Shown here: positions 14,741 through 45,482 of the stretch, one piece after another | Position numbering within the stretch: position 1 is the stretch's first letter | How the letters are laid out: each line of letters begins with the position of its first letter | Assembly: GCA_018398815.1 (NCBI GenBank) | Contig: CM031615.1 | Location: 48,986,469-49,050,468 of the forward strand | Direction: 5' to 3' | From: Conus ventricosus | Lineage: Eukaryota > Mollusca > Gastropoda > Neogastropoda > Conidae | Length of the DNA stretch: 64,000 nt | The notes under the pieces: generated by a model | What the model was told of the DNA's origin: nothing | Database searches by the model: none | Seen by the model: the letters and a program-made list of their open reading frames with translations, nothing else | Position numbers and translations under genes: made by a program

Positions 14741-15414
14741 CTTGGAGACCATATCACATTGCCATATTCAAGAATCGATCTCACCATTGCCTTGTATAGT
14801 CTAAGAAAGGTATCTCTGTCCAAGTATGTAAAAGTTCTCTTAATAATACCAATCATCTGCACGGCTTTCTTGACGGTCTGTGCAATGTGTCTGTCAAAGA
14901 GTAAGTCTTCATCAAATGTTACTCCCAAGTCTTTTTCCTCTTCACAGCACGTTATTTGAACTTCTTAATCCCCAACTTTCATACTGTAATTTAATTTAGG
15001 GTTTCTTTTGCCGATATGTAGGCCTAATACTTTGCATTTGGATGCATTGAAGTACAAATTCCATGAGTTAGACCAATTTATGAGTAGCTCAATGTCATTT
15101 TGCATTGTAAGGTGTTTAGATGGTGAACTGTACAACTTAGTATCATCAGCAAAAATCTTGCATGTGCTTTTTAACCCGTCTGGTAAGTCCTTTATAAATA
15201 TAGTAAATAATATAGGTCCCAGTATGCTGCCTTGGGGATTCCACTAATGACATTAGCATTACTAGAAACAGAAGATCCAACTCTAACATTCTGAACTCTA
15301 TCTCTCAAGAAGTCTTCAATCCAATCTAAAACTTTTCCCAGTATACCATACGATTTGAGTTTACTAAGTAGTCTGGCATGTGGGACCGAATCGAGGTTCT
15401 GTTCCACGGCCTTC

Positions 15415-16585
15415 TTCTTCTTCTTCCTAAAATACTGGTTCACTCAAAAACGAGTAGGTCACCAGCGCGCATATTAAAAAATAAAATAAAATAACATAAA
15501 ACAGTGCGACTCTGACTGTTGGCCCCTGGAGCAAATTTGGCAACAAGGGGTCGCACTCGATTTAAAAGCAATGGCCAAATTCAGGCCCAGGTGATAATAA
15601 AATATCTGGGGAAATAAAAATAGAAAATCATCAATATGCAGATCTCAAAACTGTCGAATCAATTTGTCCCTTGAATGAGATTGCACTTGTGGCAATCTTG
15701 ATGGGACCCGGCAGTGAGTTCCACAGCCGTACAGAACTGGGATAAAAAGAATGTAAGTGGCTGTCAATATTTGATGCAGGTATGGTATAACATTGACCGC
15801 CACTCCTGGTGCTACTTTTATTCAATACTAGTTGTTCCATTGGAATATCAATTACTTTAGCTCTGCCTTTGAAAAAGGTGTTAAGTTTAATAAAAGCTCT
15901 TCTCTCTTCTAAGGGTTTCCATTCTAATTTCCTCATGTTCTTCCTAGTATTCCCCTTTTCTCTGATGTGGTTCCCTGTTACGAACCGTGCTGCTCTCTTC
16001 TGAATCTTTTCGAGGTTATCAATGTCCTTTAGATGGTAAGGATCCCAAACTGACAACCATATTCCAGTACTGGTCTAACCAGTGTTTTGTAGCAGTCGTC
16101 TTTAACCTTTTGGGGCAGTCATTGATGTTCCTGTATAAGAAAGCTAAGATGTTATTTGCTTTCTTACATACTAAATTGTAATGTTCTTTCCATTTGAGAC
16201 GACTATCTATAATCACGCCTAAATATTTTGCAGCATTAGTTTCTTTAAGAATAGTATTATGGATAGAATAATCTGATCTAATTGGTGAGCGTTTGTTACA
16301 TATACGCAACACTTGGCACTTTTGGGATGAAATTCCATTTTCCAAGTTCTTTCCCACTCTTGTAAAGCGTTTAGATCTTCTTGTAGAATGCGAGTATCAT
16401 TCTTGCTTCTGATTGTTCTATATACTAAACTGTCATCTGCAAAAAGCCTTATAGTAGTTCCAGGAGAAAGATTTCTACTTATGTCATTTATATAAATTAA
16501 GAAAAACAAGGGCCCCAGAACAGTTCCCTGTGGTACACCTGACAAGGCCTTAATGAAATCGTTTTTGTGAAATGTGAAGTCATAC
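15415..16585 (-). mobile_element. LINE family B copy 1 (RT palm to 3' end), inactive
   Basis: On the minus strand the RT palm starts near 16560 with [20 protein letters not shown] and RLFADDSLVYR (catalytic FADD). It continues with the YLGVIIDSRLKWKEHY motif (about 16200) and VWDPYHLKDIDNLEKIQKRA (about 16050), and ends with a terminal SVRLWNSLPGPIK block near 15700. The 3' UTR (15440-15620) ends in GAA repeats at 15408-15428. Frameshifts near 16060 and 16330 break the frame. A nearly identical copy lies at 40850-41972, and 3' fragments at 13493-13544 and 38085-38282. The copy is 5'-truncated within RT. Confidence 0.9.
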
Positions 16586-20494: not shown

Positions 20495-20583
20495 AGAGAA
20501 CGGGGAAATACCAATCCTGGGCCACTTCCGCCCTCACCCAGTTTCGGGCGAAAGTAACCCAGGATTGGTATTTCCCGTTCTCT
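20495..20583. repeat. Terminal palindrome (hairpin) inside the left TIR
   Basis: Outer arm 20495-20521 and inner arm 20558-20583 are complementary over 26 bases with one unpaired base. The outer arm reads AGAGAACGGGGAAATACC, and the inner arm complement reads AGAGAACGGGAAATACC. A weaker inner stem (9 of 12 positions: cttccgccc with gggcgaaag) leaves a loop of about 12 bases. The structure lies at the extreme terminus. Confidence 0.9.
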
Positions 20584-20684
20584 GACAAGTAAGACTTCAA
20601 TAACCAAAAAATAACGATTATCTACAAACAAACATACTGTGTAGGGTTATCCGTTTTCAATACTAATTTACTAAACTTTTCAGA
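20495..20684 (+). repeat. Polinton left terminal inverted repeat
   Basis: This matches the reverse complement of 36007-36193 with a few substitutions and small indels, for example gacaagtaagactt.aataacc, acgattatctacaaacaaac and atactgtg.agggttatccg. It ends two bases before the ATPase stop codon, so the coding region abuts the repeat. Confidence 0.95.
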
Positions 20685-20686
20685 TT

Positions 20687-21232
20687 TCAGTTTTGTTTAA
20701 TCCTGTGTTTTTCCTGGTCATTTTCAATAACATCATTTTCACGCAAACATTCATCAAATGAGTCTCTGTCTTTCATGTGAAATAGAACTACAGTCTTTAA
20801 CTGTTCTCTAAAGTCTTTTAAAACTGAGTTATATTTTTGACATAAAATCCACACACTTATTCCAGCATGTCTTCCACTGAAAGCCAGTTTTGACAAAGTA
20901 TTTCTTTTTTTAACTATGTCTCTTTCTGCCGAACAGTCATCTATAATAAATAATGTCTGCGTTCCTTCAAACAGTCTATAAAACTGTTCTAAACATTCAC
21001 TCAGTTTATTGCTGGGATCAACTAAATATATGTCATCATCTGTCCATAAAAACCTTCTATCATGATATGCTTTGTTCCATTTAAGTGTTGGACAGAAAAC
21101 CACAATATGATTAAAATTATAACGATAAACTGTTTGTAACAGGTCGAGGATAAATATTGTTTTTCCACAACCAGTCTGCCCACAAATCAATGAGCAATGA
21201 GGAGTTTTTGTCATAAAGTTTAACTGCTCCAT
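20687..21232 (-). CDS. Polinton packaging ATPase (FtsK/HerA, poxvirus A32-like)
   Basis: This 181-codon open frame is closest in motif pattern to the genome-packaging ATPases of Polintons and large DNA viruses. Walker A is GQTGCGKT (residues 18-25) and Walker B is LFIIDD (about 94-99). A conserved segment near 116-125 (FSGRHAGISVW) and the sensor-like ILCQKYNSV follow. The predicted role is ATP-driven DNA translocation into a capsid. It starts at the ATG at 21230-21232 and stops at the inner edge of the TIR. The protein is somewhat shorter than I would expect for this family, mainly at the C-terminus, but the frame is intact. It is the last of a run of minus-strand genes. Confidence 0.9.
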   Translation of the reverse strand: MEQLNFMTKTPHCSLICGQTGCGKTIFILDLLQTVYRYNFNHIVVFCPTLKWNKAYHDRRFLWTDDDIYLVDPSNKLSECLEQFYRLFEGTQTLFIIDDCSAERDIVKKRNTLSKLAFSGRHAGISVWILCQKYNSVLKDFREQLKTVVLFHMKDRDSFDECLRENDVIENDQEKHRIKQN

Positions 21233-21373
21233 AGTTTATAGCAGAATTTAATCTAATCCAGTTATTATTTTTATCATACTCTCTGTCAAAACTTGTTCAG
21301 TATAATAAAACCTACGAGGCCTAAATGTGTAAGATTAATCCAATTCAGTTCTGTAAGATTGTTTCTATTTAAG

Positions 21374-21810
21374 TCAACATTGATTTTGTTTGCTTGTTGT
21401 TATGATCTTAATATCCTCGCCATTGTGAAGAACGACGATGGTAACGTTAAGACGTTTAACGTCTAAGTTTTGCCAGCTAATATTAATTCCTTTTATAAGG
21501 TCATCACTAACGCCCACAACCCCATCCCTCTCCACATCTTTAAAGACAGAAATTTCAAATATCATTGTGAACGTGTCTCCTAATTTTCTGCTTGGAAGAA
21601 CTGTAATTTTGTAGAAGCTTTTTTTACAACTGTTTCTTTTCTGTGGAGGATGTACTGCTTTTTCCCATACGGCGTTATTTCAATTTCTTTCCGACTATTG
21701 TCGTCCGGCATAAGACTTACATGTAAAGGGCCAGAGTTGAATGCTTTTCTGAAACTTTTTTGACGGCTAAAATATGTAAATGGGCTTATGAATTCAATTT
21801 TATTTCCCAT
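21374..21810 (-). pseudogene. Conserved small Polinton protein in two frames (function unknown)
   Basis: Two adjacent open segments, 21580-21810 (starting MGNKIEFISPFTYFSRQKSF) and 21374-21565 (containing DNLDVK-like WQNLDVKRLNVTIVVLHNGE), appear to be one gene of about 145 codons broken by a single frameshift near 21600, because the second frame is also open upstream of its ATG. It lies between the ATPase and two other minus-strand genes, in the structural-gene cluster. I do not recognise a catalytic motif. A virion or accessory role is inference from position only. Confidence 0.6.
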
Positions 21811-21816
21811 TCAAAA

Positions 21817-22104
21817 TTATGGTTCTAAGTGCCATTTGAGGTCAGGTTTTCGAACTATTTTATATTCATACTGACCAACATTATTTGCTTCTAGATTGCG
21901 CAGCTGTTCTAGTTTAGGAAACTTTTTACTGTCGCCAACCTCTTTGCGTTTATAATCACCATCTTTAGTGTACTCAAAACCATACAAAGCGCCTATCTCA
22001 CCGTTCTGTTCAAAGTCCGCAACGTCTGCAAGGTCTTTTAATTCTAAAGTTATACACCTCACAGGCGCTAATGTAACTCCTGGTTCTTCTGGCCCACGCG
22101 ACAT
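21817..22104 (-). CDS. Small Polinton protein, intact, function unknown
   Basis: This 95-codon open frame starts MSRGPEEPGVTLAPVRCITL and ends KPDLKWHLEP. It is acidic with a lysine-rich centre, has no membrane segment, and shows no motif I can assign. Its stop is six bases from the start of the next minus-strand gene, which suggests a co-transcribed cluster running toward the left TIR. Confidence 0.6.
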   Translation of the reverse strand: MSRGPEEPGVTLAPVRCITLELKDLADVADFEQNGEIGALYGFEYTKDGDYKRKEVGDSKKFPKLEQLRNLEANNVGQYEYKIVRKPDLKWHLEP

Positions 22105-22159
22105 TATTTTTTAGTGGCGTATTATTTTATTTCCAAAACAATGTGCAGGTTATCACATT

Positions 22160-22811
22160 TCACAACTTTCCCGCTTTGTCTTTGATTTTTATATTAAATG
22201 ATCCAACCCTCCCACAAACTAATCTTTTAAACTGTAAATTAGGGAATTGTATAATTTCATAATCGCAATATGCAGCTTTCCCTGATGGAAGAGCTCTTAA
22301 AACAGTTGAGGGCCTTCCGTCATATAAGTTTTCATCAGTGCTCAGCTCATCCAAATGAACATAGAGTAATGAATGTAATGCAAGATCGAGCGGACTTTCC
22401 CCCTCATAAGTAGTTTGGGTTGGTGTAACTCTAAATCTATAATTGTTAGCTGTAAAGCCTAACATTTTAGCTAGTTCTTTATCAAAATAGTAACCTACTT
22501 CTTCTTCAGGCTTGAATGTTAACATTGTTTTTAGATTCGCATTGTTAAGTTTGAGAGTAATGTCGAAGTTACTCATTGCTTCTTTTAGTGAGCAAAACCC
22601 GTAATAACCATCAGCTATTGTTAACTGGCTAACTAATGTTCCTGCATTATCAATTTTTTGAATTCTTATTATTCTTCCTGGATTCACTTATATTAAACCA
22701 TACGACTTTGTAAAATATTTCATGAAGTGCAACCATTTTGGCTCCGCATTCGTTATCAATAGCATGTTCTAAAAACGAAGGGCGGTCTTGGGTTGTTATT
22801 GTTACAAACAT
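22160..22811 (-). pseudogene. Probable minor capsid (penton-type, jelly-roll) protein with one frameshift
   Basis: The ATG at 22811 opens MFVTITTQDRPSFLEHAIDN. After about 42 codons the frame is lost near 22685, and the homologous reading continues as an open frame to the stop at 22160 (including GYYGFCSLKEA, LLYVHLDELS, TVLRALPSG and a C-terminal KRLVCGRVGSFNIKIKDKAG). The pattern of a ...LYV.LD... strand followed by a C-terminal ...I.I.D..G segment is familiar from Polinton proteins that I associate with the minor capsid. This is from memory of the family, so the specific role is tentative. The start codon is only 21 bp from the divergent gene at 22833. Confidence 0.5.
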
Positions 22812-22832
22812 TTTTTTTTAAACGAAATAAAA
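22812..22832. promoter_or_regulatory. 21-bp divergent intergenic gap
   Basis: This A/T-only stretch apart from one C and one G (tttttttttaaacgaaataaa) separates the start codons of a minus-strand gene (22811) and a plus-strand gene (22833). Any promoter elements for both must lie here or overlap coding sequence. Confidence 0.5.
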
Positions 22833-24039
22833 ATGAGTGCATTCAAATATACTGGTGCAAAATATTCTGTTGGGCCGCACTACAATCTTAAAAATATAGC
22901 AACTGATACTCTTGACATTGCTGTGACCCAGACTGCCTCTTTTCATAAAAAGGTGAGTACTCCATTGAAGAGCTATCTTAACCCCCTATTGAAAACGACC
23001 ACATCAAGAAAGCGTGGTTTAGTCATCCGATGCAGTTTTATCAGAACCAGTTAAACTTTGCTGTGTTTTGCGCATCAACTGGGTGTGGAGTGTCATATGT
23101 TGATCATTTAAATCACCATGATCCTTTGGTGAGGTCAGTGTACAGATTTCATTTTATTACACCTTCAGACGTATTTTGACTGAACTGCAAGCACCATTAC
23201 CAAATGACAAACCATTTAATCCACTCAGCAACAGAATAGACATGAAGGCTTTTGAAAGGATCTGTAACGAATTCAATATTAACTTCAAGACAGGCTTTAG
23301 ACAAAAGTTGGATCATAATCATGGCCTAGGCGACCTTTATTTTCGGGGCACGCACAGAAAGTATAACTATGACTGGCATCCTCCTTTCAAATCTTTCTTT
23401 TTTGGCACAACTGTTGAGCCCGGGCCCCTACAGCAAGAGCATAAAACAGCATGGACAACATTTATCTTAGACACTTCTAAGGCCTAACTAGGGCGGGAAT
23501 AGAACGAATAAAACGACTCTATTCGTACTTACGTTTGGTGTTTGCTAGGTTCGCAAGCACAGCAAGATCGAGCATAACTGATCTTTCTACTGCTTTGACG
23601 CACAAAAACAATACTTAGCAAATTTAGAGGACGCCATTTAATTCTACAGTTGATTTACCTTCAAGTATTCAAAGGTACCAACATGTTTTACAATACGCAA
23701 GATCGAAAGTAGACTTTGCTGTTGGCACTGGTTTATACTGCTGCCTTCTGACCTCAGACTCCAGATAGGTACAATAATAAACTATAATAATGAAATTCTT
23801 ATAGCAGGCAATGAACAGAAGGTTGGGAAAAACGACATAAATTCTGAGCCAGTAATATTACAAACAATAAAAGAAACCCAAGATTAAGTCATCTAATTCC
23901 CGAAGTCCAAACCCCCAAAGTCATTGAAGGCTCAGCAAAGCTCGCGGACTCTGTTCGCGATGACCATGAATATGAAAAGACAGCGCTTGTTCTTGGATTA
24001 ACTGGCATAGGATTACTTGGTCTTTATCTTACTAAATAG
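22833..24039 (+). pseudogene. Conserved Polinton structural-type protein with C-terminal membrane segment, several frameshifts
   Basis: The ATG at 22833 opens MSAFKYTGAKYSVGPHYN. After a frame change near 22990 the sequence continues with FAVFCASTGCGVS and then RILTELQAPLPND (23180 on), KAFERICNEFNINF and the GLGDLYF region, open to 23487. Further pieces in other frames include GLTRAGIERI (about 23490) and a final block (about 23895-24039) ending in the hydrophobic ALVLGLTGIGLLGLYLTK. I recognise the FxVxCAxTGCGVS and xRxICNEF motifs as typical of a widespread Polinton protein of uncharacterised function. At least four frame changes make this copy non-functional as assembled. Its 3' end overlaps the convergent minus-strand gene by about 28 bp. 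Confidence 0.65.
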
Positions 24040-25213
24040 TAACCCAACTATTACAAGAACTAATGACCATAAGTGCTCGGCCATAAAGCCACTACTTTGC
24101 TTGCAGTAGACAAAAGCAGCTGACAATACTCCCCAATATTCCTGGTAAAGCGTCCACGGCTTTACCAGCTAATTTTTTTAATAAACTTGCAAGATGATCA
24201 AGCTGTTTTTTACCCATGATTTATCAGGCGGAGATGGAGGGGGATGGCGGCGGAGGTACTGAACTTTGGCCACCGCCGCCTGTAATAGCCAACACCATGT
24301 ACTTATTGCAAATCCTAAGGCAGTTATAACGCTTGCTAATGTGACGCCTTGCTCTCTAAACAGCGTTCGTATTCGTTCTGCTAGCGTTGTGTCTTCATAT
24401 AAAATTTTCCGGATATTTTTCTCTTATTCTATTCACTTGAGTTCGTAATTGGTCCCGGTTAGTAGTCGTCACTTCTAGTCTTGCTGATCTTTCTTGTTCA
24501 AGATCTTTTAGTCTTTGGGCTATTCTTTCTTTAATATCAGGCCCTAAGTTGGCGTCATCAGCCTCAACGAGTTTTTCTTTTTCTCTTTTTATATGCTTAT
24601 CTAGTTCACCTAGTTTTGCTAAATTGTTTGTTAATTCGCCTTTGTGGTTCTTAAAGTACGATCAAGGGCTAATAATTCTCGCATAGGCAATGGGGAATCA
24701 TTAATTGTTTTTAACGCTGTTTCTTCTGAAAAACTGGTTTCTGCTTCTATTGCATTTATTAATTCGCCCTGCCGATTGATTTAATTCTTTAAGTTCCATG
24801 TTTTGCATTTGGTTATCTGTCGGGAGTTCTTGTAGTGTGTTTTGAAGTTTAGCAACTGCATCCCTATCTAATTTTGGTCTAGCAATGCCAAGGCGATTTT
24901 GTACGCTCGCAGGGTGCCTATTTCTAATTGAACCCACGGCTAAAAACTTTGATGGTCTTTTTTAGTTGTAAGCCGAACAAGTTGTCCTTGGGCGTTTTTC
25001 ACAGACAAATGCCCATCTTCTAATTCAAAATCATTTGGGTCTATAAATTCGGGACGTTCTTGGCCTAAACTTTTGTAAATGCTTCGACCGTACTTTCTGT
25101 TAATTCACGCCGCATTGAGAGCGTTGAGCGATGCTGTGTCAAAGGGATCATTTCACTCATGTCGTCTCCAGGATCAAAAACATCATAATCTTCTTCGCTT
25201 CAATTCCTGCCAT
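24012..25213 (-). pseudogene. Polinton coiled-coil protein with two hydrophobic segments, several frameshifts
   Basis: It starts at the ATG at 25211-25213. Recognisable blocks on the minus strand are YDVFDPGDDMSEMIPLTQHR, SVKNAQGQLVRLTTKKDH, the open stretch 24701-24937 (KLDRDAVAKLQNTLQELPTD) and a charged coiled-coil part (KREKEKLVEADDANLGPDIK). The C-terminal half holds RIRTLFREQGVTLASVITAL (hydrophobic segment 1), a Gly/Pro-rich linker, a SLLKKLAGKAVDALPGILGS block and a final membrane segment near 24040 (HLWSLVLVIVGLLF). This layout is familiar from many Polintons, though its role is unknown to me; membrane association is predicted. At least five frame changes. It is divergent with the capsid gene, with a gap of 39 bp. 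Confidence 0.65.
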
Positions 25214-25252
25214 GTTTTTAAATAATTAACTTTTTATTTTGCTTCATTAAAA

Positions 25253-26521
25253 ATGGCGCAGCAAGCACATGGCTCGATTCTTGACCCGCATAGAAGACTG
25301 AAAGAACCCAATGGCGTGAAGGGAAATAAGCGGAATATTACTGTTCCAAATAATCCATTACTATTGATGCAGATCAAATTCTTACTGTCAAATTTCCAGA
25401 CCTAGGAGCGGATGAAGTGATTGTGCCAGGCTCTGCACGTCTTACTTTCAAAATAGAACTCGCTTCAACAACAGACCCAAACAGGACAGTTGTACAGAAT
25501 CTGGGGCGGGCAATCGTTAAGAAAATTTCTATAAAACTTGAGGGGCAAGAAATATTTTCTTTACACAATGCAGAATATTTTTAACCTATTCTGATCTATG
25601 GCTAACCGGGAATGAAAGGGCTGATCTTGCGTTTCAAGGAAATCGAAAATGAAGAGAAGCGCTAAAACATAGAATAGGCGCTGAAGATACTAAAGACGCA
25701 AAAAGTATGTAGCCGTAAAGTTTGCGTATGGAAATCGCTTTTCCATTCCTTAGATTTTGAGTTGTTAAAAGCGCATGCACCATACTTTCAAGGAGCATTA
25801 AAAGACAGATTGTCATATGAACTAACTTTTAATGAATACAAACGTGTTATCAATCATCAGACACCGAAGCAAAGTACAGCATTTCTGACATCTCGTTAGA
25901 GTTTGACGTTGTTAGCAACCCTAATTTAGCAAGGCTGATTGAGCAACAATATCAGTCAAAATTAGCAATATATTACGAAAGAGTGATTCATCATACAACA
26001 TATCCCAGAAGCAGGGCAGACACTATATGGAATTTTAGTTTTAGCGTCGCTGCAAGGTCCCCTTAAGGTATTTTATTGCTGTGTGAAGATGAAGAACCGT
26101 TCAAAAGAGCAAGTGAAAAGTTTTTTAATCCTAAAATAACGAAAGTGCAATGTACAATTGACGGTAGTCCCAACCAAATCTACGCTAGCGGGCTTAGACC
26201 TTATCATCATTTTGACGAAATAAGAAAATTGTTTGGGGTGGGAGGGGTAGAAGTGTAACAGCAGACCTAGTGTCTAAAGATTTACATCTTCACAATGTTA
26301 GGCTTGATGATTATTTAACAACAAAATACGGTTTATGGGTTGACCTAAGGTCAACGGAGGATAATCAGTTGTATGGAAGCGGAGAGAGCTGTGAGAGACG
26401 TAATAAACATTCAAATTGATAAAGAAGAAGAAGCGATAAAACCGCTTAATGTACATTTGTTTTTAATATATGATGCGCAGCTGAATATTAAAGAAAACAG
26501 ATTAAAAGAGATACGATACTA
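25253..26521 (+). pseudogene. Polinton major capsid protein (double jelly-roll type), many frameshifts
   Basis: The ATG at 25253 opens MAQQAHGSILDPHRRLKEPN. The homologous reading then hops frames. One long open block at about 25357-25582 contains VPGSARLTFKIELAS and NRTVVQNLGRAIVKKISIKL, a signature of the Polinton major capsid protein. Later blocks include APYFQGALKDRLSYELTFNE, EFDVVSNPNLARLIEQQ, the open frame at 26076-26258 (ITKVQCTIDGSPNQIYASGL) and a C-terminal NVHLFLIYDAQLNIKENRLK ending at 26521. Total span is about 420 codons. The predicted fold is a double jelly roll forming icosahedral capsid hexamers. I count roughly eight frame changes, so no full-length product is possible from the sequence as given. 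Confidence 0.8.
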
Positions 26522-26544
26522 AATTATTTTTATTTTAAAAAAGC

Positions 26545-27110
26545 ATGTCTGTTACGGTTTATCCAAATGTGCCTACAGCGCCGCCAAAAGAAGAGATAGT
26601 AGAAACCCCTAACATAAAAACCTTCAGATTAACCAACATTACACAAATGCAGCAAGTACTAGAGCAAGACCTTTCAAAATACAGCAAAACCAAACGAAGG
26701 TATTCTGCTGCCTTTAATGCTGTTACATATGTTAATACTGGAACATCGACTATAAGCGCTCTATCAGCAGGAACGAGTGTAGGCCTCTTAGCAACAGGCA
26801 TAGGTGCACCGCAGCTTTACCTCTAGGCGGGTTGTCTTTAGCTCTCGGTCTGTGTTCATTAGCTGTAAGTGGCGGCTGGCAAAAAATTAAAAACTAAACT
26901 CCAAAGCACACAGCTATGGTTCAACTAATAACGGCTAAACTTAGTTCGTTTAAACTGACAATAAATAAAGCACTAGCTGACTCAAACATCACGGATGAAG
27001 AATTTAATCGTTTACAGGCCGATTTTGATGACTACAAAAGACAAAAGTTTGATCTTCAAAGAAAGGCGAGGACAAGTTTTTCTCAACAGCCAGACCCGAG
27101 CAGATAAAAA
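26545..27110 (+). pseudogene. Polinton membrane protein with hydrophobic centre and coiled-coil C-terminus, one frameshift
   Basis: The first open part (26545-26826) starts MSVTVYPNVPTAPPKEEIVE and runs into a small-residue hydrophobic region (STISALSAGTSVGLLATGIG). A frame change near 26815 leads to a second hydrophobic segment (GGLSLALGLCSLAVSGG) and then, in the frame open at 26916-27107, to AKLSSFKLTINKALADSNIT and EEFNRLQADFDDYKRQK, a helical tail. Paired hydrophobic segments followed by a coiled coil suggest a membrane-interacting virion protein, which is inference. The family recurs next to the capsid gene in other Polintons as far as I recall. Confidence 0.6.
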
Positions 27111-27299
27111 AGGAATGCTTAAAAAAAGTAACGAGACATTAAACTCTGTTCTAAACAGCTCACATTAACAACATCGAAGGGTGTTTATACTTTAGTTTAT
27201 GAGTCTAAGCACAAAAAGACCGTTGATATTGATTCTGATTAAGCCGTTGTATTTTTTTTTAATTTAAATAAATATGTTGGCTTAGAAAAGAAAGACAGC
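27111..27299 (+). other. Gap between Polinton genes, probably the decayed C-terminus of the preceding gene
   Basis: Frames here contain SNETLNS-like and VLNSSH-like fragments but no open reading. The stretch ends in an AT-rich run (27250-27280) before the ATG at 27300. Confidence 0.4.
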
Positions 27300-30200
27300 A
27301 TGGCTAAGATATATGAAGGCCAGATGAATTGTTTGAAGGAATGCTTGAGAGAGAGCGTTTATCAAGAGCACTGAATGATATTGATTTAGAAGTCATTGAC
27401 CCAACAAACGTACAGGCAAGTGTTGTTCATGCTATTTCTCAAGTTCCAGGCAAACTAACAATAGACCCGCCAGTTAAAGTAATGTTAGCTGTTTTAATCG
27501 ACTATGTAACAATAAATGAAGAAAATCTAGAAGTCTGGGTCTCGACTAAACAACAGACTATTCTTTCCTCTAATGACTTAACACCCGGTTGGGCAGACGA
27601 AACTGCTTACACAGTTTGACGCTGCCGCTGAAGAAGCTAAAATGAGAGGCTCTGGTTGGTCAGAGGGCGAAGTCTTAGAGATTAGATTAAAACAGGCTAA
27701 GTATGCACCGATTGTAGGCAAGGCTTACATTCCGCTGCCCCGAGAGTTGGTTTTAAAGAGAGCAGTTTTAAACATAAAAATTCAGACAACAAATGTTTCA
27801 TGTGGTGCGTTCTTGCAAGGCTGCATCATGTCCGCGAACACGCAGAGGAGAGTGACTAACTATCGGCAATACACCAAAGATCTTAACTTCAATGGAATAT
27901 CCTTTCTGTTAGTGTAGACCAAATTGATCAGTTTGAAGAACAAAACAAACCAATAACTGTCAATATCTACACATGGGATGAGGAAACAAATCTACAGCCG
28001 ATTAAAGTGTCCAAGAACAGTCCAACAATTGGCGAGCCAGACAAAAATCATGTTGACTTACTACTAATGTTTTCACCAGCGGGGCTGCCACATTACACAT
28101 TGATACGAACAATGAGTAAACTAATGCAGCATACTTCAAAAGATGGGCACAAACAAGAATTCTGCAGAAAATGTTTAACAGAATGCCATCTGTTCAAGCC
28201 GCAAGCGAACATAAGAAACATTGTATCGGCCCAGTTGACTGTAATACAGAACTAATTACGCCCCACCTGGATCTAAAGTTAGTTTTAAGAACTGGAAACG
28301 GATGCAACATTCTCCATACGTAGTTTACGCAGACTTCGAGTCGCTTATTGTTCCTATGAAGGGCCAGCGCCACAAAAACTTCGAAAAAACAGTCTTAATG
28401 AGTAATCATCAGATTTGTTCATTTGCCTTCATCATTGTTAGGTCGGATGGCGCTCATTCAACGCCAGAATTATACAGAGGGCGAGATGCTGCAGAATACT
28501 TCTTAAACGCATGCAGCAAGTGCGTAATGATTGTTCTAATAATCTGAATTTATCTGAAATCATAATGGCGCCTGAAGACCAAGAACAGTATGCCTCAGCC
28601 ACTCACTGTTGGATTTGTGGTTTAGAACTCAGTGAGGAAGCCAATCCAAAAGTAAGAGACCATGATCACATTAGTGGAAAGTTCAGAGGAGCAGCACATA
28701 GTAAATGCAATCTTCAACTAAAGTTTGAACCAAAGACATGGAAGCTGCCTGTATTCTTTCATAACTTGCGAGGTTACGACTCTCATCTTATAATGAAAGC
28801 AGTAACCGACTCCTTCAGGGTGTCATGCATTGCACAGTCATCAGAAAAGTACATGTGTTTCACTTTAAATAACATGTCTTTTTATGACTCTATGCAGCAC
28901 ATGATGGGTTCATTAGAGTCGCTGGCTATATCCTTAAAGTCCTGCCCAATAACGGAAGAATATTTTGACCCAACGCTTGTTAGAAAGGGTGTTTACCCTT
29001 ATGAATACATGAACAGTTGGGAAAGGTTTGATGAAGACACACTTCCCCCTAAAGGCGCGTTTTTTCTAGTCTCAGAGGAAAGGACATTAGCGACTCCGAT
29101 TACCAGCATGCCCAAGATGCTTGGCAAAAGTTAGATTGTTTAAAACGATGGGAGACTATCATGACTCCTATTTAATGGCTGATACATGTTTGTTGGCGGA
29201 CGTCTTTGAAAATTATAGGAAGACCTGCATGAAACATTACAGCCTGGATCCCGCGCATTATATTTCTGCGCCCGGGATGAGCTGGGACGCTTTCTTAAAG
29301 TTTACTGAGAGTAAAGATTGATTTATTGTCAGATTTACCAATGATTCAGATGATTGAAAACGGGTTGCGTGGGGGAATTAGTATGGCGTCGCATCATTAC
29401 TGTAAAGCAAACAACAAATACTTGGACGACTATGATCCGAGTAAAAGGTCTAACTATCTCATGTATTTAGACGCAAACAATCTGTATGGTTGGGCAATGG
29501 CGCAATCACTTCCATTACGTAACTTCAAGATGTACACAGGTACGAATAATATTCAAAAGGCATTAAAGTGGTTTGAACAGTTTAACGCCTGATCAGCAGC
29601 GTGGCTTCATTCTAGAAGTTGACTTAGAATATCCTCATGAACTCCATGACCTCCATAATGACTATCCATTAGCAGCAGAAAGTCTAAAGATGGATCCAAG
29701 AGAGCCGCCTAAACTTGTGCCCAATCTTCGGGGCAAAAAAAATTATGTCTGTCATTACAGACTTCTACAATTTTATTTAAGGCATGGTTTAAAGTTAACA
29801 GCTGTTCATCGTATAATTGCTTTTGATCAAGAACAGTTCATGAAACCATACATCATGAAGAACACTGACCTCAGAACTAAATCCACAGATGCTTCAGAAA
29901 AAGACTTTTTCAAGTTGATGAACAACAGCTGTTTTGGAAAGACTATGGAGAATCCGCACAAGCGCAAAGATGTCAGATTGGTCACCAGAGAGAATGAAGC
30001 AATTAAGCTGACTTCAAAACCTAATTATCAGGACTTTAAAAGATTTCATGATCAGCTTTTTGGCATAATGATGAAAAAAAAGAAAGTCAAATTAGACAAA
30101 CCTGTATTTATTGGGTTTACTGTTTTAGAATTATCAAAGCTTTTGATGTTAGAGTTTCTTTATGACTACTTTAAGCCCTCGTATCCCGAGTCCAGAGTGC

Positions 30201-30693
30201 TTTACCACAGATACAGATAGTTTTGTTATAGATATCCCTACTGAAGACATCTATAAAGACATGGAATTAGAAGTAGCTAAAGGAGCGAGTGGATGGTACG
30301 ACACATCCGATTACCCTAAAGATTTTGCCTTTACATTCAATTACTAACAAGAAGGTTTTAGGAAAGATGAAGGATGAATTATCTGGAAAGGTGATCAAGG
30401 AGTATGTGGGGTTAAGGTCAAAAATGTACAGTATTTCGAGCCAGGAGAAAATCATTAAGAAAGCAAAGGGAATATCTCGCAGCGTTGTGCAGTCAAACAT
30501 ATCGCATGGCAACTACAAAGAAGCATTGTTTGGTAATAAGACTTTTCATCATGACAACGTAAAACTGCGATCTAATCTCCATGAGATCAACACAAACGGT
30601 TGTAACAAAGAAGTCGTTAGATAGAACAAACACAAAACGGGTGTTTGTTAATCCAGGGTTTTCATATGCAAATCGGGCACTGGAGGACCACAT
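27300..30693 (+). pseudogene. Protein-primed family B DNA polymerase (Polinton PolB) with embedded endonuclease-VII-like zinc motif; many frameshifts
   Basis: The N-terminal region spans 27300-28260 (GSGWSEGEVLEIRLKQAKYA, AYIPLPRELVLKRAVLNIK, zinc-like FCRKCLTEC). The 3'-5' exonuclease begins at 28320 with VYADFESLI (Exo I). At 28590-28735 a CWICGLEL ... VRDHDHISGKFRGAAHSKCN motif resembles an endonuclease VII/HNH treble clef. FFHNLRGYDSHLIM (Exo II) and YHDSYLMADTCLLADVFENY (Exo III) follow. Polymerase motif A is YLDANNLYGWAM (about 29465), motif B KLMNNSCFGKTMEN (about 29915), and motif C DTDSF (about 30208), the last in a different frame from motif B. The end (about 30660-30693) lies near VNPGFSYANRALEDHI. 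All catalytic motifs survive, but at least seven frame changes break the gene. Confidence 0.9.
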
Positions 30694-31000
30694 AAACAGG
30701 GGGGGTTATATTTTTCATCAACTTTTATTATAAGATCAATCATAGCTTCATCCAATTCATTTAAATCTTTTCTCATGTTTGCTTGATGCGTTCGAATTTT
30801 TTTTATTTATTTCAAGATATTCTTTTTCCCCAATTTGGGGGTTTGAGTTGTAGGTGATCTGGATGATTTAGCATGCATTGATTAATCCCCGAAAATGTTT
30901 CCTTAATAGCATTACACACATGAAATGATTCCCGTATCATTTTCAAGGTCTCTTCCTTTACCATTCTTGTTTCGTTCTGCGCTTCCTTCTGGCCTTCCAT
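30694..31000 (-). pseudogene. Small helical Polinton protein, frameshifted, function unknown
   Basis: The minus-strand open frame at 30812-31000 starts MEGQKEAQNETRMVKEETLK. Beyond a frame change near 30825 a likely continuation contains KDLNELDEAMIDLIIKVDEK, reaching about 30700. It is charged and helical with no motif I can assign. It lies between the convergent polymerase and integrase genes. Confidence 0.45.
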
Positions 31001-31073
31001 TTTAAACCAAAATATGTTTACGTAAATTAATTAAAGCGGAACTGTGTCTGGTGGATTATCTGCAGTTCTTCTT

Positions 31074-31979
31074 TCACAAAAGATCTTGAGGAGCTGGTTG
31101 TTTTGTTGTGTCAGTTTCTCGTAAATAATACACGGGCGGATTCATTTTTACAATTCTTTTTATTTCATATGGATCAACACTCCAAACCGGATCGGTTGCC
31201 CTGATGCGAGTGTCCCCTTCTGCTTCCCCCGGTAAATAAAGGTACCTTACTTTCAAACCAAATGGTAATAGTTTGCCGGATGAAGACTCTCCTTCAACAG
31301 CATTTATTGTTTTTCTTTTGATTGCTTGTACTGGTTTTAGGCCTTTAAATTCTTCATTATTCATTGCGCGCAAAACTGAGGGCAATCTTCTAACCCATTC
31401 TGTGTTGCGAGAGTTGTCAATAAGCTCTCTGTGATACTGGTAGGAGAAAAGTCTTTCGGCTAACTGTTTGTTAAAGTTTTCAACTAAAGCCTGTGATCTG
31501 TGAACTCCCGGAATGTCTCTTCTAATAGTAACTCTGTGTTTTAACAATAATTGATTCACTTGGCCTTTAAATTCTTTCCCATCATCGACTTGAATCATGC
31601 GAGGATAAGTTAAAGGGCCTCGTTGATATATCAGTTGTATGGCAACAGCAACGGCAGAAGCACTCTTTTGTGTTAATGGTTCCGCATCTTTGTATCTTGA
31701 AGCTATGTCAATGACTGTGAGTGCGTACTTAAATCTTTTTCGTCTAATCGTATCAGAGGGTAAATATAGAAGGTCCATTTGATGGGTGTCGTTTGGAGTT
31801 GTATTGACAAAGTGTGGTCTCTGTATTCGCCTAGGCGCTGGTAAATAAATTTGCCAAATCGCTTGTTTAGATAACCATTTTTTTGCTGTTTGTTCACTAA
31901 CTCCAGCTGCTTGGCTTAGCTTTTGTATTGCTGTGATGCCCTTCCAATATCCTTTGGGCGAATAATAGATTTTGTTCAT
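31074..31979 (-). CDS. Polinton integrase (retroviral-type rve, DDE)
   Basis: An intact 301-codon frame. The N-terminal part (YYSPKGYWKGITAIQKLSQA, then KWLSKQAIWQIYLPAPRR) is a helical region that precedes the catalytic core. The core carries HQMDLLYLP (first Asp, about residue 69), MIQVDDGKEFKG (second Asp, about 132) and SQALVENFNKQLAERLF (Glu, about 167), a D-x62-D-x34-E arrangement typical of this enzyme family. The C-terminal part GLKVRYLYLPGEAEG ... ATDPVWS is typical of Polinton integrases. The predicted role is joining element ends to host DNA with a short target-site duplication. The start is the ATG at 31977-31979, eight bases after the upstream gene's stop. All catalytic residues are kept. 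Confidence 0.95.
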   Translation of the reverse strand: MNKIYYSPKGYWKGITAIQKLSQAAGVSEQTAKKWLSKQAIWQIYLPAPRRIQRPHFVNTTPNDTHQMDLLYLPSDTIRRKRFKYALTVIDIASRYKDAEPLTQKSASAVAVAIQLIYQRGPLTYPRMIQVDDGKEFKGQVNQLLLKHRVTIRRDIPGVHRSQALVENFNKQLAERLFSYQYHRELIDNSRNTEWVRRLPSVLRAMNNEEFKGLKPVQAIKRKTINAVEGESSSGKLLPFGLKVRYLYLPGEAEGDTRIRATDPVWSVDPYEIKRIVKMNPPVYYLRETDTTKQPAPQDLL

Positions 31980-31986
31980 TTTTTAT

Positions 31987-32396
31987 TCAGCCAATATTAT
32001 GTGCAACAAAATACACGACGGTCATACCAAAGGCAATAAACGCGATTTCTTGCATCTTTTGTTTTTTCTGATGGTTGATAAAAGTCACTGAATTTTGGTG
32101 GGGGCAATGTCTGGACCGGTTTGCCTGTTACTAGATAATATTGTTTTATTGCTTGATCAACATTTTTTAAATATGTAAGCTGCATGCCCCTGTTTTTTCA
32201 GTGTGTCATTAATAAAATCTAACTGCTCAAGTCTCTGCTTTTCATAGGCGTCTTGTGCAGCTGCTAGTTGCTCCATAGCTTTGTTATGTCTTTTTCTCTC
32301 GCCGTCATCCCGCAGTTTACTAAATGCGAAATTACTTCCGCTAAAAGCAAGCGCATTCACCACAGCGCCACCTATCATCATTACGAGTGAAGCCAT
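31987..32396 (-). pseudogene. Small Polinton protein with N- and C-terminal hydrophobic segments, two frameshifts
   Basis: It opens MASLVMMIGGAVVNALAFSG (hydrophobic) and a charged helix (RHNKAMEQLAAAQDAYEKQR). After a frame change near 32180 it continues with VDQAIKQYYLVTGKPV and PPPKFSDFYQPSE. A second change near 32065 leads to a terminal hydrophobic AFIAFGMTVVYFVAHNIG and stop at 31987. I recognise the order and the SDFYxPSE motif from other Polintons, where it is one protein next to the integrase. The role is unknown, probably membrane associated. The stop is seven bases from the integrase start, suggesting shared transcription. Confidence 0.65.
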
Positions 32397-32418
32397 TTTT
32401 TATAAATGTATTTTTTAT

Positions 32419-32649
32419 TTACATATTTATACTGTCTGGAATTATTCCTTGCTTGACTAGAAAATTTTTCGTGGCAACCGAAGCTGCAATGATAGCAATC
32501 AGCTTTGCTGAATCCTCAAAGTCTAGTTTGCCAAGATCTGCTGGTTTAATTCTTAACAAGCTTTTACCAAGCATTGAGTATCCTACACTTAGACCTCCAA
32601 TAACAGCAGAATGGTATACAAGGTTGGTAACAGTTTTTTCGGTGCTCAT
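32419..32649 (-). CDS. Small Polinton membrane-type protein, intact
   Basis: A 76-codon frame starting MSTEKTVTNLVYHSAVIGGL, with YSMLGKSLLRIKPADLGKLD in the middle and a second hydrophobic stretch (LIAIIAASVATKNFLVKQGI). The SMLGK...PADLGKLD pattern is familiar from Polintons upstream of the integrase. No function is known to me. It forms a divergent pair with the gene at 32686, with 36 bp between starts. Confidence 0.7.
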   Translation of the reverse strand: MSTEKTVTNLVYHSAVIGGLSVGYSMLGKSLLRIKPADLGKLDFEDSAKLIAIIAASVATKNFLVKQGIIPDSINM

Positions 32650-32685
32650 TTTTTAAAAATAAAATAATTATAATTTAATAAAAAC
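32650..32685. promoter_or_regulatory. 36-bp AT-only divergent gap
   Basis: The stretch between start codons at 32649 (minus) and 32686 (plus) is almost entirely A and T, including ataattataatttaataaaa. It is a likely bidirectional promoter. Confidence 0.5.
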
Positions 32686-33273
32686 ATGAACAGTGATGAT
32701 CTACTACAGCTACAAGGCGGCCTAAACCTTCCCGAACTTATGAATGACCAAGTTGATGGCCAAGCTGTTATGCCCCAAAAGGAGAGGTTGTATTCTTTGG
32801 CAGCGTGTGGAAAAACAAAACAGTTCCTCGGAACTGAATTCAGCATAGAACAGATTCAACAGATGCCTCCACAAGACATTATAAAGTATCATAACAGGTA
32901 TGAAGCGCAGCTGGGGTCTAGAATGGTGAAAAGTGTGGGGCAAACGGTTCTTAGTTTGTACACTAAACTAGTCAGTAGATTTGCTCCCATTGATTCTGAA
33001 CAAGATCTTACGTATGATTTAACGCAAGATCCAGTTTTAACAAAGTCATTAGAGTCTCTAGGGTGTGATCTATACTACAGATTTGGAACATTGTTATCGC
33101 CATTAATCATGGGATTAATAACTTTTAATCATATAGATTTTGTTTCCCTTCAAAATGAACGAGCTGGAAAATCATCAGAACCAGAATCAGGAAACATTGA
33201 ATCAGGTGGAGAAAGTAACCAAGCCAGAAAATCAGCAGAATCAGAAAACACTGAATCAGGTGGGGGCCGGTGA
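32686..33273 (+). CDS. Conserved Polinton protein, intact, function unknown
   Basis: A 195-codon frame starting MNSDDLLQLQGGLNLPELMN. The conserved middle YEAQLGSRMVKSVGQTVLSL, then YDLTQDPVLTKSLESLGCDL and YYRFGTLLSPLIMGLITFNH matches a family I recall from many Polintons beside the integrase. The C-terminus is a Ser/Glu/Gly-rich low-complexity tail (about residues 160-195). No catalytic motif is evident. Its last 119 bases overlap, in another frame, the start of the next gene at 33155. Confidence 0.7.
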   Translation: MNSDDLLQLQGGLNLPELMNDQVDGQAVMPQKERLYSLAACGKTKQFLGTEFSIEQIQQMPPQDIIKYHNRYEAQLGSRMVKSVGQTVLSLYTKLVSRFAPIDSEQDLTYDLTQDPVLTKSLESLGCDLYYRFGTLLSPLIMGLITFNHIDFVSLQNERAGKSSEPESGNIESGGESNQARKSAESENTESGGGR

Positions 33274-33664
33274 AAGCATCCTCATCCTGGGCGTGTTAAA
33301 GCAGGAAAAAAATTAGCAGAGTGGAACAGACAAAAAAAATTAATGTTGCAGAATATAACTCATCATGAAAACATAACACCGCCAGCGCCAGAACAAGTTG
33401 ATTCAATGCCCGCTATAAAAACTCCATGTGATACAAGACCTACAGCACCAAAGTCTTCATGGAATATTGAACTTAAAAACTGTTGCCATTTTTGGCGCCA
33501 TTGCTGCTGTTGGGGGCAGTTATTACGGTTATAAAATATATAAAGAATGGCAGCCAAAACAAAAGCAATCAAAAAAATCTGAACCGTTAAATACAGAAAA
33601 AGACAACTGCACGCCAAAACCGTCAAAACCAAAAGATCATTTTGATCCATTTATAATGCAATAA
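33155..33664 (+). pseudogene. Overlapping Polinton gene: lysine-rich N-terminus and single membrane segment, two frameshifts
   Basis: An ATG at 33155, in the +1 frame of the preceding gene, opens MNELENHQNQNQETLNQ, with repeated Asn/Gln-rich units. Near 33275 the likely reading changes frame into HPGRVKAGKKLAEWNRQKKL, a basic motif I know from Polintons. It changes again near 33470 into a membrane segment (TVAIFGAIAAVGGSYYGYKI) followed by a basic tail ending DHFDPFIMQ at 33664. The layout (basic cytosolic part then one TM helix) recurs in the family. The overlap with the upstream gene is about 120 bp. Confidence 0.55.
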
Positions 33665-33693
33665 TATTTTAAATTTTTTAATAAAAATAGATC

Positions 33694-33928
33694 ATGGCGT
33701 ATTATAAAATGATAAAGTCAATAAATAAAGACATGGAGTCTATAAAAGACATTTCCATAGACCAGAATTGTAATCAATGTGGTTGCTTAGGATGTAAAAA
33801 CTTCATTAAGATCTATGCTGACCCATCTCGCGCAAAAGAACGCTGAGCAAGATATTCTCAGCGATGACGCGTTTTTTGAGGCGTGTGTGTACTATATTAG
33901 ACATCTACTATTTAAGACAAAAACATAG
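33694..33928 (+). pseudogene. Small cysteine-motif Polinton ORF, one frameshift
   Basis: The ATG at 33694 opens a 50-codon frame containing CNQCGCLGCKNF, two closely spaced CxxC pairs that could bind a metal. It stops at 33844-33846. The sequence shifted by one base continues open as EQDILSDDAFFEACVYYIRH to a stop at 33926-33928, so a protein of about 78 residues is likely, broken near 33840. It is the rightmost gene of the element. Function unknown. Confidence 0.5.
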
Positions 33929-34205
33929 ATTGTTTTTTAATAATTATTAATAAGAACTTGGTTGTACTTAGAGGATGACTTAGTTTGATCTTGAGGTAAC
34001 TTAATCAAGAACTTAATCAAGAACTTATTAAGAACTTGAAGTAACTTAATTAAAACTTAATTAAGTTCTTAAGGAGACTTAATTAAGAATTTAGAGTGAC
34101 TTAATTAAAACTTGGAAGTGACTTGGGGTTAAGAACTTGGGGGTGGCTTAATTAAAATCTCTCACTTAGAGGTAACTTAAAGGTTACTTGATTAACCTTT
34201 ACCAA
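33929..34205. repeat. Interspersed AACTTAATTAA-type repeat region in the Polinton
   Basis: Variants of gaacttaattaa, acttaatcaagaact and cttaaggagacttaattaag recur every 15-30 bases on both strands, many containing the palindrome TTAATTAA. It follows the last gene. Whether it is a replication or transcription element is not known. Confidence 0.7.
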
Positions 34206-34966
34206 CCAAGTCGTTCAAAAGTGGGTAACAGGATACACTTCCATAAAATGGTCCAAGGGAAATAAGCGCTGTAACTAGTCTTGGGGATGTTAGAACGAGT
34301 TACTTTCAGTGGCCTATTGTGAACTTGGCTGCGTCTCATTATGTGTAAGCCCTGTGTTTTGTCGCGCTGGGCGACAGTGTGTCATCACACACACATACAC
34401 ACGCGCGTTACACTGTCTAATATCACTTTAAAGTGAAAAGACGTTAAATCAAAGAACAACAACACACACACACACGCGCGCGCATGCACACACACACACA
34501 CACACACATACTTACGCGCACAGCCCGCTAAACAGAACACACGCGGCATTTGCGCCGCACACACTTACACACACACACACACACCCCAACATGCCCACCC
34601 ATGTAACATGTACGGCGGCCCCGGGCGGATCATGTGATAGGACTGCGCACTATCCAATTACTTACTATGGGGGGCCAGTCAGAGCCAGACCCAAAACACA
34701 CACACGCAGAAAGAGAGAGAGAAAGAGAACAACAGGTGAGAATGAGACGGTTAGTTTGACAGGGAGCATATAATTACACGGCAAGCGGCGAGCGAACGCT
34801 GTGTGTATGTGTGTGTGTGTGGGTGTGTATCAGGCTTTACCTTTCGGGCTAATTGTACCGTGTTGGTGTTTTCAGCTTTAAGCAGATCAAACAGCCACGA
34901 ACGGTAGCAGGTTGAGCGTTAGGCCTTGGCCGTTGCTTGCACACACACACACACATACGTACGCGT

Positions 34967-35000
<34 letters not shown>

Positions 35001-36006
35001 GCGCGCATGCACACACACACACACGCACGCACACACTTACACACACATACTTACGCGCACAGCCTGCTAAACAGAACACACGCAGCATTTGCGCCGCACA
35101 CAACGGCCACCTGTCTAGAGGCCGCGCACGCAGCTTTATCGATTGCATCACGAAAAAGTAGTAATGGAGTGGTCTCCCTGTACACGTGGATTGCACCACC
35201 ACCAAAAGTAAGCTTAAATATAAGAATTCAACTACTCGCTATTGGTGGTCGGTTGGCCACCGCAGGCGTCACACTTTCGGAGTTTGGAGTTGCTGAGTTC
35301 AGGGCTGGGCTTCCCTCATTAGTTTGGTCACACAGTTTCGAGTTTCGAGTGAGACCAGAGTCTTGGGGGTCAAGTTCACCCATCCAGAATGAAGACCGGT
35401 GCCAGCCATTCCAGACCCGAGGCCAGCCACCACCACCCAAAAAATCCCAGGGCAAACATACTCCTGGGGTTTCCCCCCTGAAAGCATGGTCGACACAAGT
35501 GACGCCTGCGAATAAAATTAAATCAACAGTCGGCCATGCTCAGGGAGGGGGGGTTTTTGCTATTTTTTATGTTAAAAAAAATTGTATTTTTATTTATCTA
35601 CAATATATATGTTTGTAGCGTGCTGCCATTATTTTTTTCAAAAATATCAAATATTAACACGCACACAGCAAAAATATGTCACACACTACAGTTGTCCCAA
35701 TCCAAACCAAAGTTTTAAAGTCCCAGAAAACACATACCACTTCACAATCAACACCAGCAATGGAAATGACGAGGCAGAGCTGCGTTGTAAGCCCTGCACT
35801 TAATTTAATAAGACTGGCGTTGGTTCAAAATCGCCATGCCCAGTCACGCGGTAAGTAATCGGATAGTGCAGAGTCCTTAGGTAGGCCGTCAACTAGCAAT
35901 TAAAGGCTAGACGTTTGTATATGAGGCGCGTTCAGCCACAACTGCTTTTCCCCCGCGTTACTCTATGGGGCGTGTTCAGTCCCGGCTACTTTCCCCTACG
36001 CTACTC
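34206..36006. other. Non-coding right segment of the Polinton, with CA microsatellites and duplications
   Basis: No gene was recognised in about 1.8 kb, in contrast to the dense left part. CA/CG-rich runs lie at 34383-34420, 34465-34510 and 34940-35060. A block of about 57 bp at 34505-34561 is repeated at 35044-35100 with two substitutions (cttacgcgcacagcc.gctaa). A 27-bp inverted repeat (24 matches) lies at 34639-34665 and 35851-35877. Two imperfect direct copies of gttcag.c...ctactttcccc..cg lie at about 35938-36006. Part of this may be a secondary insertion. Confidence 0.6.
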
Positions 36007-36193
36007 TCTGAAAACTTTAGTAAATTAGTATTAAAACGGATAACCCTGCACAGTATGTTTGTTTGTAGATAATCGTTTTTTTGGTTATTAAAGTCTTACT
36101 TGTCAGAGAACGTAGAATACCAATCCTGGGTTACTTTCGCCCGAAACTGGGTGAGGGCGGAAGTGGCCCAGGATTGGTATTTCTACGTTCTCT
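36007..36193 (-). repeat. Polinton right terminal inverted repeat
   Basis: Reverse complement of the left TIR with a few differences, for example gcagggttatcc against gtagggttatcc. The outermost sequence ends ...CTACGTTCTCT at 36193. Confidence 0.95.
36105..36193. repeat. Terminal palindrome (hairpin) inside the right TIR
   Basis: Inner arm 36105-36130 (AGAGAACGTAGAATACC...) pairs with outer arm 36167-36193 (complement AGAGAACGTAGAAATACC...), 26 matches and one unpaired base. Compared with the left end, both arms carry GTAG where both left arms carry GGG(G). The unpaired base falls in the inner, shorter arm at both ends. Confidence 0.9.
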
Positions 36194-40701: not shown

Positions 40702-40849
40702 GCAAAAGTTTTTATCACAGCAAAAGAGTTAATTTTGTTTGTTTGAATTGATTATTCTTTCTGTCTTATACCTTCACATGAAAAACCTCATTGACTGCAG
40801 CAGCTGATAGTGCTGATCATGATGCTTCTTCTTCTTCTTCTTCTTCTTC

Positions 40850-45410: not shown

Positions 45411-45482
45411 CACACAGCCGATGAATCGCCCATTTGAATTTGTCACATGTTTTTCTTTTGCTGTGTTGAGTTTCTGAGCCGT

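Follow-up and report, generated by a model that had tools for sequence, protein, structure and literature searches.

Here we analyse the termini of a Polinton-type element in the genome of the gastropod Conus ventricosus. The window, that is the whole stretch of DNA under study, comprises 64,000 nucleotides (nt) of contig CM031615.1 (assembly GCA_018398815.1, positions 48,986,469 to 49,050,468 of the forward strand), and the element spans 20495-36193 of it. This very abundant virus-like transposon has at its ends foldback hairpins of 89 bases, whose two arms have repeatedly changed in concert from copy to copy. How could two arms change together? The explanation that we consider moderately probable as a whole is 3' fold-back, in which one arm would serve as the template of the other.

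The palindromes lie at 20495-20583 and 36105-36193, as the original prediction had placed them, and both start terminal inverted repeats (TIRs). The arms also agree within each end as it described, both carrying AGAGAACGGG at the left and AGAGAACGTAG at the right. Two of its statements are to be refined. The 89-bp palindromes are present at both ends but imperfect, each of them having a single 1-nt bulge and C·A mismatches at three positions, and the TIRs, which were called nearly identical apart from a dinucleotide, measure about 190 bp at 94% identity. In the self-comparison the left TIR (20495-20684, forward strand) is 94.2% identical to 36193-36007 of the opposite strand, and the same comparison gives the right TIR (36007-36193, reverse strand). 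Each near-palindrome consists of a 39-nt outer arm, a 12-nt loop and a 38-nt inner arm, with the loops taken from DNA folding. At the left end these are 20495-20533, 20534-20545 and 20546-20583 on the forward strand; at the right end, whose outer arm is of the GTAG subtype, they are 36155-36193, 36143-36154 and 36105-36142 on the reverse strand. The bulge is formed by outer GGGG against inner CCC at the left and by outer AAA against inner TT at the right. Towards the tip of both hairpins an outer C stands opposite A at nt 28, 29 and 34 from the terminus (20522, 20523 and 20528 on the forward strand at the left end). When both strands are folded, these positions are G·T on the strand that has its 3' end at the terminus and C·A on the other strand. 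The 3'-ended strand reaches -38.6 kcal/mol against -35.2 for the other strand at the left end, and -37.3 against -33.9 kcal/mol at the right end. The folding that had been proposed as a check thus gave hairpins far more stable than chance: z ranges from -10.6 to -13.5 over the four strands (3' strands -12.2 at the left and -13.5 at the right), and none of 200 shuffles was as stable for any of them. As a separate observation on the TIR, it stops within 35960-36020 of the window and likewise in the end L165, and is followed there by GTAGGGGAAAGTAGC sequence; this occurs in more than one copy and is perhaps an alternative inner border of the TIR.

How common are such ends? The host genome that was searched comprises 3.52 Gb in 12,740 contigs. 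A hairpin core of 58 nt has 269 copies there with no more than 3 mismatches (control 0), and a 27-nt piece of the TIR interior adjoining the hairpin is found at 9,333 places (reversed control 0), seemingly an extreme copy number in one genome for elements of this kind. We extracted 212 distinct ends, about 2% of all, of which 84 were found through the interior and are therefore hairpin-blind, and 128 came from hairpin- or loop-based searches. The hairpin-blind sample goes back to the first 100 exact interior matches listed, all on one chromosome and all with the exact 27-nt interior. Nine of them were already in the hairpin-based set and were left out; among the 91 extracted, 3 read N and 3 were without a recognisable outer start, which leaves 85, or 84 unique ends, since L218 is the same place as L140. 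Two of the ends, L149 and L175, lie about 4.8 kb apart with a common flank and reflect a local or assembly duplication.

The stems of these ends are hypervariable. Over nt 8-24 the 84 hairpin-blind ends have 50 different outer stems. Their TIR interior, by contrast, is 92% alike across 56 nt, a conservation that is partly due to exact-match selection, 20 of the 56 being fixed by the search. Nevertheless the two arms of one end go together. Mean arm identity is 0.80 within an end and 0.60 between ends; an identity of at least 0.8 is reached in 60 of the 84 ends, against 4% of between-end comparisons. The arms match at an identity of at least 0.70 in 64 ends, and in 24 they agree exactly over nt 8-24. 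This answers the coupling test that the original prediction had called for, the arms being linked far more within a terminus than between termini. Is it simply linear linkage? In 54 distinct paired hairpins the partner base, 57-75 bp off, was more informative than the neighbouring base at all 10 positions of nt 8-17, with for example 1.43 bits of mutual information with the partner and 0.43 with the neighbour at nt 10. When unpaired ends are kept, this is still so at 9 of 10 positions (70 hairpins) and at 8 of 10 (113 hairpins, all ends). Linear linkage as the cause of arm agreement is ruled out by this comparison at nt 8-17; for nt 18-25, compared without gaps, the outcome was mixed. The arm agreement is thus covariation, not linkage.

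The covariation was also measured after aligning 68 distinct hairpins, all 90 or 91 nt long, starting AGAGAAC and finishing GTTCTCT, with unpaired ones included. Pairing cells make up 89.7% of this alignment, compared with 80.2% after shuffling and at most 49% after sliding. Two-sided changes occur in 24 of the 39 pairs, and the cells changed on both sides number 305, compared with 101 ± 10.5 in shuffled and at most 78 in slid alignments. The count of further pair types is less striking (52 against 48.2 in shuffles, with 32 of 500 shuffles reaching it). The two-sided changes include the transversions A-T/T-A and C-G/G-C, which have no wobble intermediate. From the same 68 rows RNAalifold predicts 21 pairs, and the assigned structure has 39.

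Stem sequences are moreover shuffled in modules: 12 types of nt 8-11 and 22 types of nt 16-22 form 37 combinations, and four module quartets have all four combinations present, although some of the 22 types, and one quartet, differ merely by a one-base shift. A gap-aware profile over 60 distinct hairpins, whose percentages are partly high by choice because the hairpins were selected for an arm identity of at least 0.70, gives 95-100% pairing at nt 1-17, 82-98% at nt 18-25 and 87-98% at nt 29-37, after which the loop follows. In between, pairing falls to 53, 43 and 75% at nt 26, 27 and 28, which marks a mismatched bubble; in the subtype of the window the bubble is at nt 28-29. Both helices flanking it covary. 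The orientation of the loop is identical in all 212 ends, the 84 hairpin-blind ones included. Flip/flop hairpin transfer as a simple model was rejected on this count, with none of the 212 ends flipped.

The mismatches that remain in the hairpins are biased towards one strand. Among the transition mismatches at nt 8-39 of 105 distinct paired hairpins, 177 are G·T on the 3'-ended strand and 13 on the 5'-ended strand, with ratios of 42:5 in the stem (nt 8-25), 86:2 in the bubble and 49:6 in the tip; at nt 1-7 the ratio is 0:2. A further 87 mismatches in these hairpins are transversions. After identical contexts were merged, the 3' strand still leads by 45 to 10 (p = 2e-6), and contexts found in several ends give 21:3. 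Were duplex DNA mutated symmetrically, G·T would be equally frequent on both strands. The bias would be produced by misincorporation during 3' fold-back synthesis, by cytosine deamination of an exposed 3' strand, or by selection for the folding of that strand, and all three sources need a 3' strand that is folded or exposed. The bias points to 3' fold-back copying.

There is a further question, when does the coupling arise? Variants that are found at a single locus and lie one stem event from a common hairpin are one-sided in 11 cases and two-sided in one (L092, nt 28). Among the variants common to different loci, several are two-sided, namely those at nt 13 (A to T, four ends), nt 15 (T to C) and nt 11 (A to G) and the TATA type; shared but one-sided are the GGGG/CCC bulge type, with 12 ends, and the converse GGG/CCCC type, with 2. 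Because the one-step variants of single loci are mostly one-sided and several coupled variants are common to loci, the coupling most likely arises before insertion.

The two ends of one element were also compared, after ends on opposite strands and roughly 14-22 kb apart had been paired by hand. An exact target-site duplication of 5 bp is present in 19 of 27 end pairs (e.g. L109/L110 and L157/L158) and one of 6 bp in none, and shuffled flanks give a mean of 0.7 and a maximum of 5 duplications among 27 pairs. The window copy has no target-site duplication, with AAACAGTG at the left and AGGTGAAT at the right, and its ends belong to two subfamilies, GGGG/CCC (left) and GTAG (right). For these two reasons it is probably a chimera of two elements. 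The original prediction had argued from the difference between the left and right ends as if they belonged to a single element. This argument is weak: a chimera alone accounts for the difference, which we therefore set aside. In L165/L166, where the exact duplication CACGT is present, the two ends have different stems (AGG and TAT), each matched within its end; this could also stem from recombination before insertion.

What process would keep the arms matched while the stems diverge? In the 3' fold-back scenario, the terminus would be a foldback hairpin with a paired outer stem at nt 1-25, a bubble, usually at nt 26-28 and in the window's subtype at nt 28-29, a tip helix that ends at nt 37 and a loop of some 12-13 nt. 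During replication, the strand with its 3' end at the terminus would fold on itself, and the outer arm would be synthesised or resynthesised on the inner arm as template, or the arms would serve as templates for each other in some other way. Whatever arose in one arm, by a change or by recombination of a module, would then pass to the other, and stems would diverge fast yet stay paired. Both the fixed orientation and the strand bias are in keeping with an outer arm whose 3' end is primed on the inner arm. We infer that copying rather than selection alone makes the coupling, that folding concerns the 3' strand, and that copying runs from inner to outer arm. From the hairpin copying of the original prediction, a hairpin stage with copying stands as the best account of the arm coupling and the two-sided changes. 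Its model of transfer in the style of parvoviruses or large DNA viruses found no support, since it predicts flip/flop forms, which the 212 ends do not show, and since a mismatched bubble persists in the stem.

A number of observations weigh against this scenario. The bubble at nt 26-28 persists with 43-75% matching, and copying of the whole arm should erase it; under copying it must be kept by selection or skipped, and both may be at work, selection in the bubble and copying in the stems. The GGGG/CCC bulge subtype was itself amplified, so that copying does not occur at every round. Variants that were seen once and have no more than 8 differences from a common hairpin contain 30 one-sided and 14 two-sided stem changes, where 'seen once' does not prove a variant private at a sampling of about 2%; those 14, except the one in L092, lie in more distant variants. 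All event counts are inflated since the copies are related by descent, and the pairing percentages of the paired class are partly high by choice, as the class is defined by arm identity. The lean to the 3' strand extends to G·T contexts found in one end only (24:7), where mutation after insertion, acting alone, would have favoured neither strand. Of 20 unpaired hairpins, 17 likewise have the more stable fold on the 3' strand, hence strand composition explains some of the energy difference. For the unpaired hairpins (16 distinct ones) the partner is on average less informative than the neighbour (0.25 and 0.50 bits).

Also on this side are the ends whose arms do not match. Independent arms in other copies, the finding that was to speak against the original prediction, do occur in part: arm identity is below 0.70 in 20 of the 84 hairpin-blind ends, about a quarter, and the others match. 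Three of the 20 (L173, L228 and L233) have an outer part that resembles flanking sequence, and in L239 the inner arm would match but for an insertion. The rest form mostly one group in which a few inner arms stand opposite many different outer arms. The ends of this group are L157, L158, L167, L168, L171, L172, L191, L202, L204, L207, L223 and L232, and they have a differing loop-side sequence, TTGCTC... followed by CACC[AG]AG or similar. The two for which z was computed, L157 and L171, fold poorly (z about -2). Some elements with such unpaired arms nonetheless carry exact target duplications (L157/L158 and L167/L168); thus they have transposed, and pairing is not indispensable. Two further ends bear on how arms are copied. 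The outer arm of L182 is mixed: its outermost part agrees with the inner arm of this end, its loop-side part with another lineage (L179, L194), which looks like what partial terminal re-copying would leave. In L063 the alien part is at the terminus and not at the loop side, the opposite of L182, so that copying may run in either direction. An association between broken tips and unpaired stems (45, 9, 7 and 9 of 70 distinct hairpins, p = 0.003) depends on the threshold and on few related lineages, and no weight is placed on it.

The main rival to copying is selection on the structure, in which the hairpin is needed for protein binding, priming or packaging and compensating mutations are selected with no copying between arms. 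It explains better than copying why the mismatched bubble is retained, and G·T pairs of the 3' strand would be tolerated under it; for Streptomyces telomeres, likewise, two differences in the stem are called compensatory in the available excerpt of PMC7205883. The many stem differences, set against an interior that is 92% alike (partly by exact-match choice), would however require very many double changes, transversions among them. Unpaired ends that were amplified and transposed are also explained worse by it: pairing that is not essential speaks against pure selection, which would want pairing. We consider this explanation rather unlikely, yet it is the one to be taken most seriously beside copying. 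A closed-hairpin telomere or rolling-hairpin transfer as in parvoviruses and poxviruses would have to be resolved always on the same side to keep the orientation fixed. The conserved mismatched bubble would suit such a hairpin, and so would the reading frame of the junction-resolving Endonuclease_7 type beside the polymerase piece. With no end flipped, and with the element encoding a relative of protein-primed-type polymerases and an integrase, which needs open ends, we regard it as improbable.

Could the host have homogenised the arms after insertion, by template switching or gene conversion in chromosomal palindromes? Quasi-palindrome correction is a known mutational process, but host-side conversion is disfavoured by the 11:1 excess of one-sided changes among one-step variants of single loci, and several coupled variants are common to copies at different loci and hence older than insertion. 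This makes a host-side origin very improbable. There remains the reading without any special mechanism, in which elements of two subfamilies, each having inherited its palindrome, were joined in the window element as a chimera. We accept the chimera for the left/right difference of the window copy, which lacks a target-site duplication and has ends matching different subfamilies. As an account of the family it fails, because it leaves the arm agreement in dozens of different stems unexplained, and its probability is close to nil.

Are similar termini known elsewhere? The terminal palindrome of parvoviruses has an asymmetric mismatched bubble, and its 3' end can self-prime. A terminal palindrome with a mismatched bubble is shared with the element here; the difference is that parvoviruses have flip and flop forms, whereas none of the 212 ends is flipped, and the Pfam scan found no rolling-circle nickase among 17 frames of the element. 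As far as the available excerpts of the papers cited in this paragraph go, mismatches are needed for the function of poxvirus hairpin telomeres (PMC8956199). Those telomeres resemble the ends here in being hairpins with mismatches and differ in having flip and flop forms, and the element here is represented by integrated copies only. Bidnaviruses combine a Polinton-derived polymerase with a parvovirus background, and their TIRs are not hairpin-forming (PMC4061559); a Polinton-type polymerase and TIRs are thus the likeness, and repeats without hairpins the difference. Nearest in mechanism, by analogy, would be the foldback telomeres of Streptomyces, which have terminal proteins and folded palindromic 3' overhangs and for which 3'-end fold-back was proposed as the source of an in vitro fill-in product (PMC4513846). 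They also show the two compensatory stem differences mentioned above, and switching of telomeres between strains or lineages (PMC7205883). The telomeres of Streptomyces linear chromosomes and plasmids share with the element a palindrome on the 3' strand that is able to fold stably, here at -38.6 and -37.3 kcal/mol. Their ends are protein-primed, and protein priming in the element, which is known from integrated copies, would be assumed from likeness. They are bacterial, with five to eight short stems across the last 180 nt and an internal origin, whereas the element is an integrating eukaryotic virus-like one with a single hairpin of about 90 nt and 50 outer stems among 84 ends of one genome. 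With Polintons (Mavericks) the element shares an rve integrase, an A32 packaging ATPase, a piece of a viral type B polymerase and TIRs. It differs in the duplication of 5 bp (6 bp in none of the pairs), where 6 bp is given for Polintons (PMC12747079), a length that we take as typical and not as strictly defining; for Polinton-like viruses 5-6 bp are given (PMC12220804). Among the open-access papers listed, as far as excerpts of them show, we found no description of hairpin ends or arm covariation in Polintons, and hairpins are unmentioned in the available parts of PMC6431247 and PMC6723459.

The genes on which the assignment rests would place the window element among the Polintons. A packaging ATPase frame of the Pox_A32 family is predicted at 20687-21232 on the reverse strand (PF04665, E 7.2e-16, 58.8 bits, cut-off 22.8), and a retrovirus-type integrase frame at 31074-31979, also on the reverse strand (PF00665 rve, E 4.7e-10, 40.1 bits, cut-off 32.6). 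On the forward strand a 215-aa piece of a type B DNA polymerase of the organellar and viral type lies at 29567-30220; it matches DNA_pol_B_2 slightly below the curated cut-off (PF03175 over 29573-30220, E 4.5e-5, 23 bits, cut-off 25.8). A frame with an Endonuclease_7 domain of the T4 endonuclease VII type (28442-29134, forward strand; PF02945, E 2.7e-5, 24.4 bits, cut-off 23.6) closely precedes the polymerase piece, with which it shares the strand, and the two are perhaps a single gene. Judging from its family, the product of this frame is perhaps a candidate for acting on branched or hairpin DNA. No jelly-roll capsid family and no rolling-circle nickase was found by the Pfam scan of 17 distinct frames, which are part of the element's frames and include broken ones. 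The integrase has 632 relatives, and the distant ones among the 120 listed include bins named Candidatus Thiodiazotropha, which we take to be clam symbionts. Among viral contigs there was no integrase relative, by sequence or by integrase alignment, and one weak ATPase match, on a 172-kb contig. Outside the element, a direct repeat of 1.1 kb with 94% identity flanks it at a distance (15411-16546 and 40840-41971), and tandem arrays with periods of about 75 and about 61 bp, taken from self-comparison offsets, are located at 63055-64000 and 45482-45892.

What would these termini mean for the family? Schemes for the origin of DNA viruses, adenoviruses and virophages among them, have Polintons near their root, and the ends of Polintons are generally regarded as plain protein-primed termini. 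It is quite possible, at slightly less than an even chance, that the element is a protein-primed virus-like transposon that maintains its ends by 3' fold-back copying, with coupled, shuffled hairpin modules and lineage-specific paired termini. If this is true, fold-back repair and protein priming cooperate in a Polinton, which would link the replication of hairpin-ended and of protein-primed linear DNA. Should Polinton termini go through a stage with a 3' hairpin, hairpin ends would not be an alternative to protein priming, and the two could occur together in one element, as in Streptomyces telomeres. And since the host genome holds thousands of natural hairpin variants, the rules of terminal copying, namely which arm is the template, how long the copied tract is and what role the bubble has, would be testable by sequence alone.

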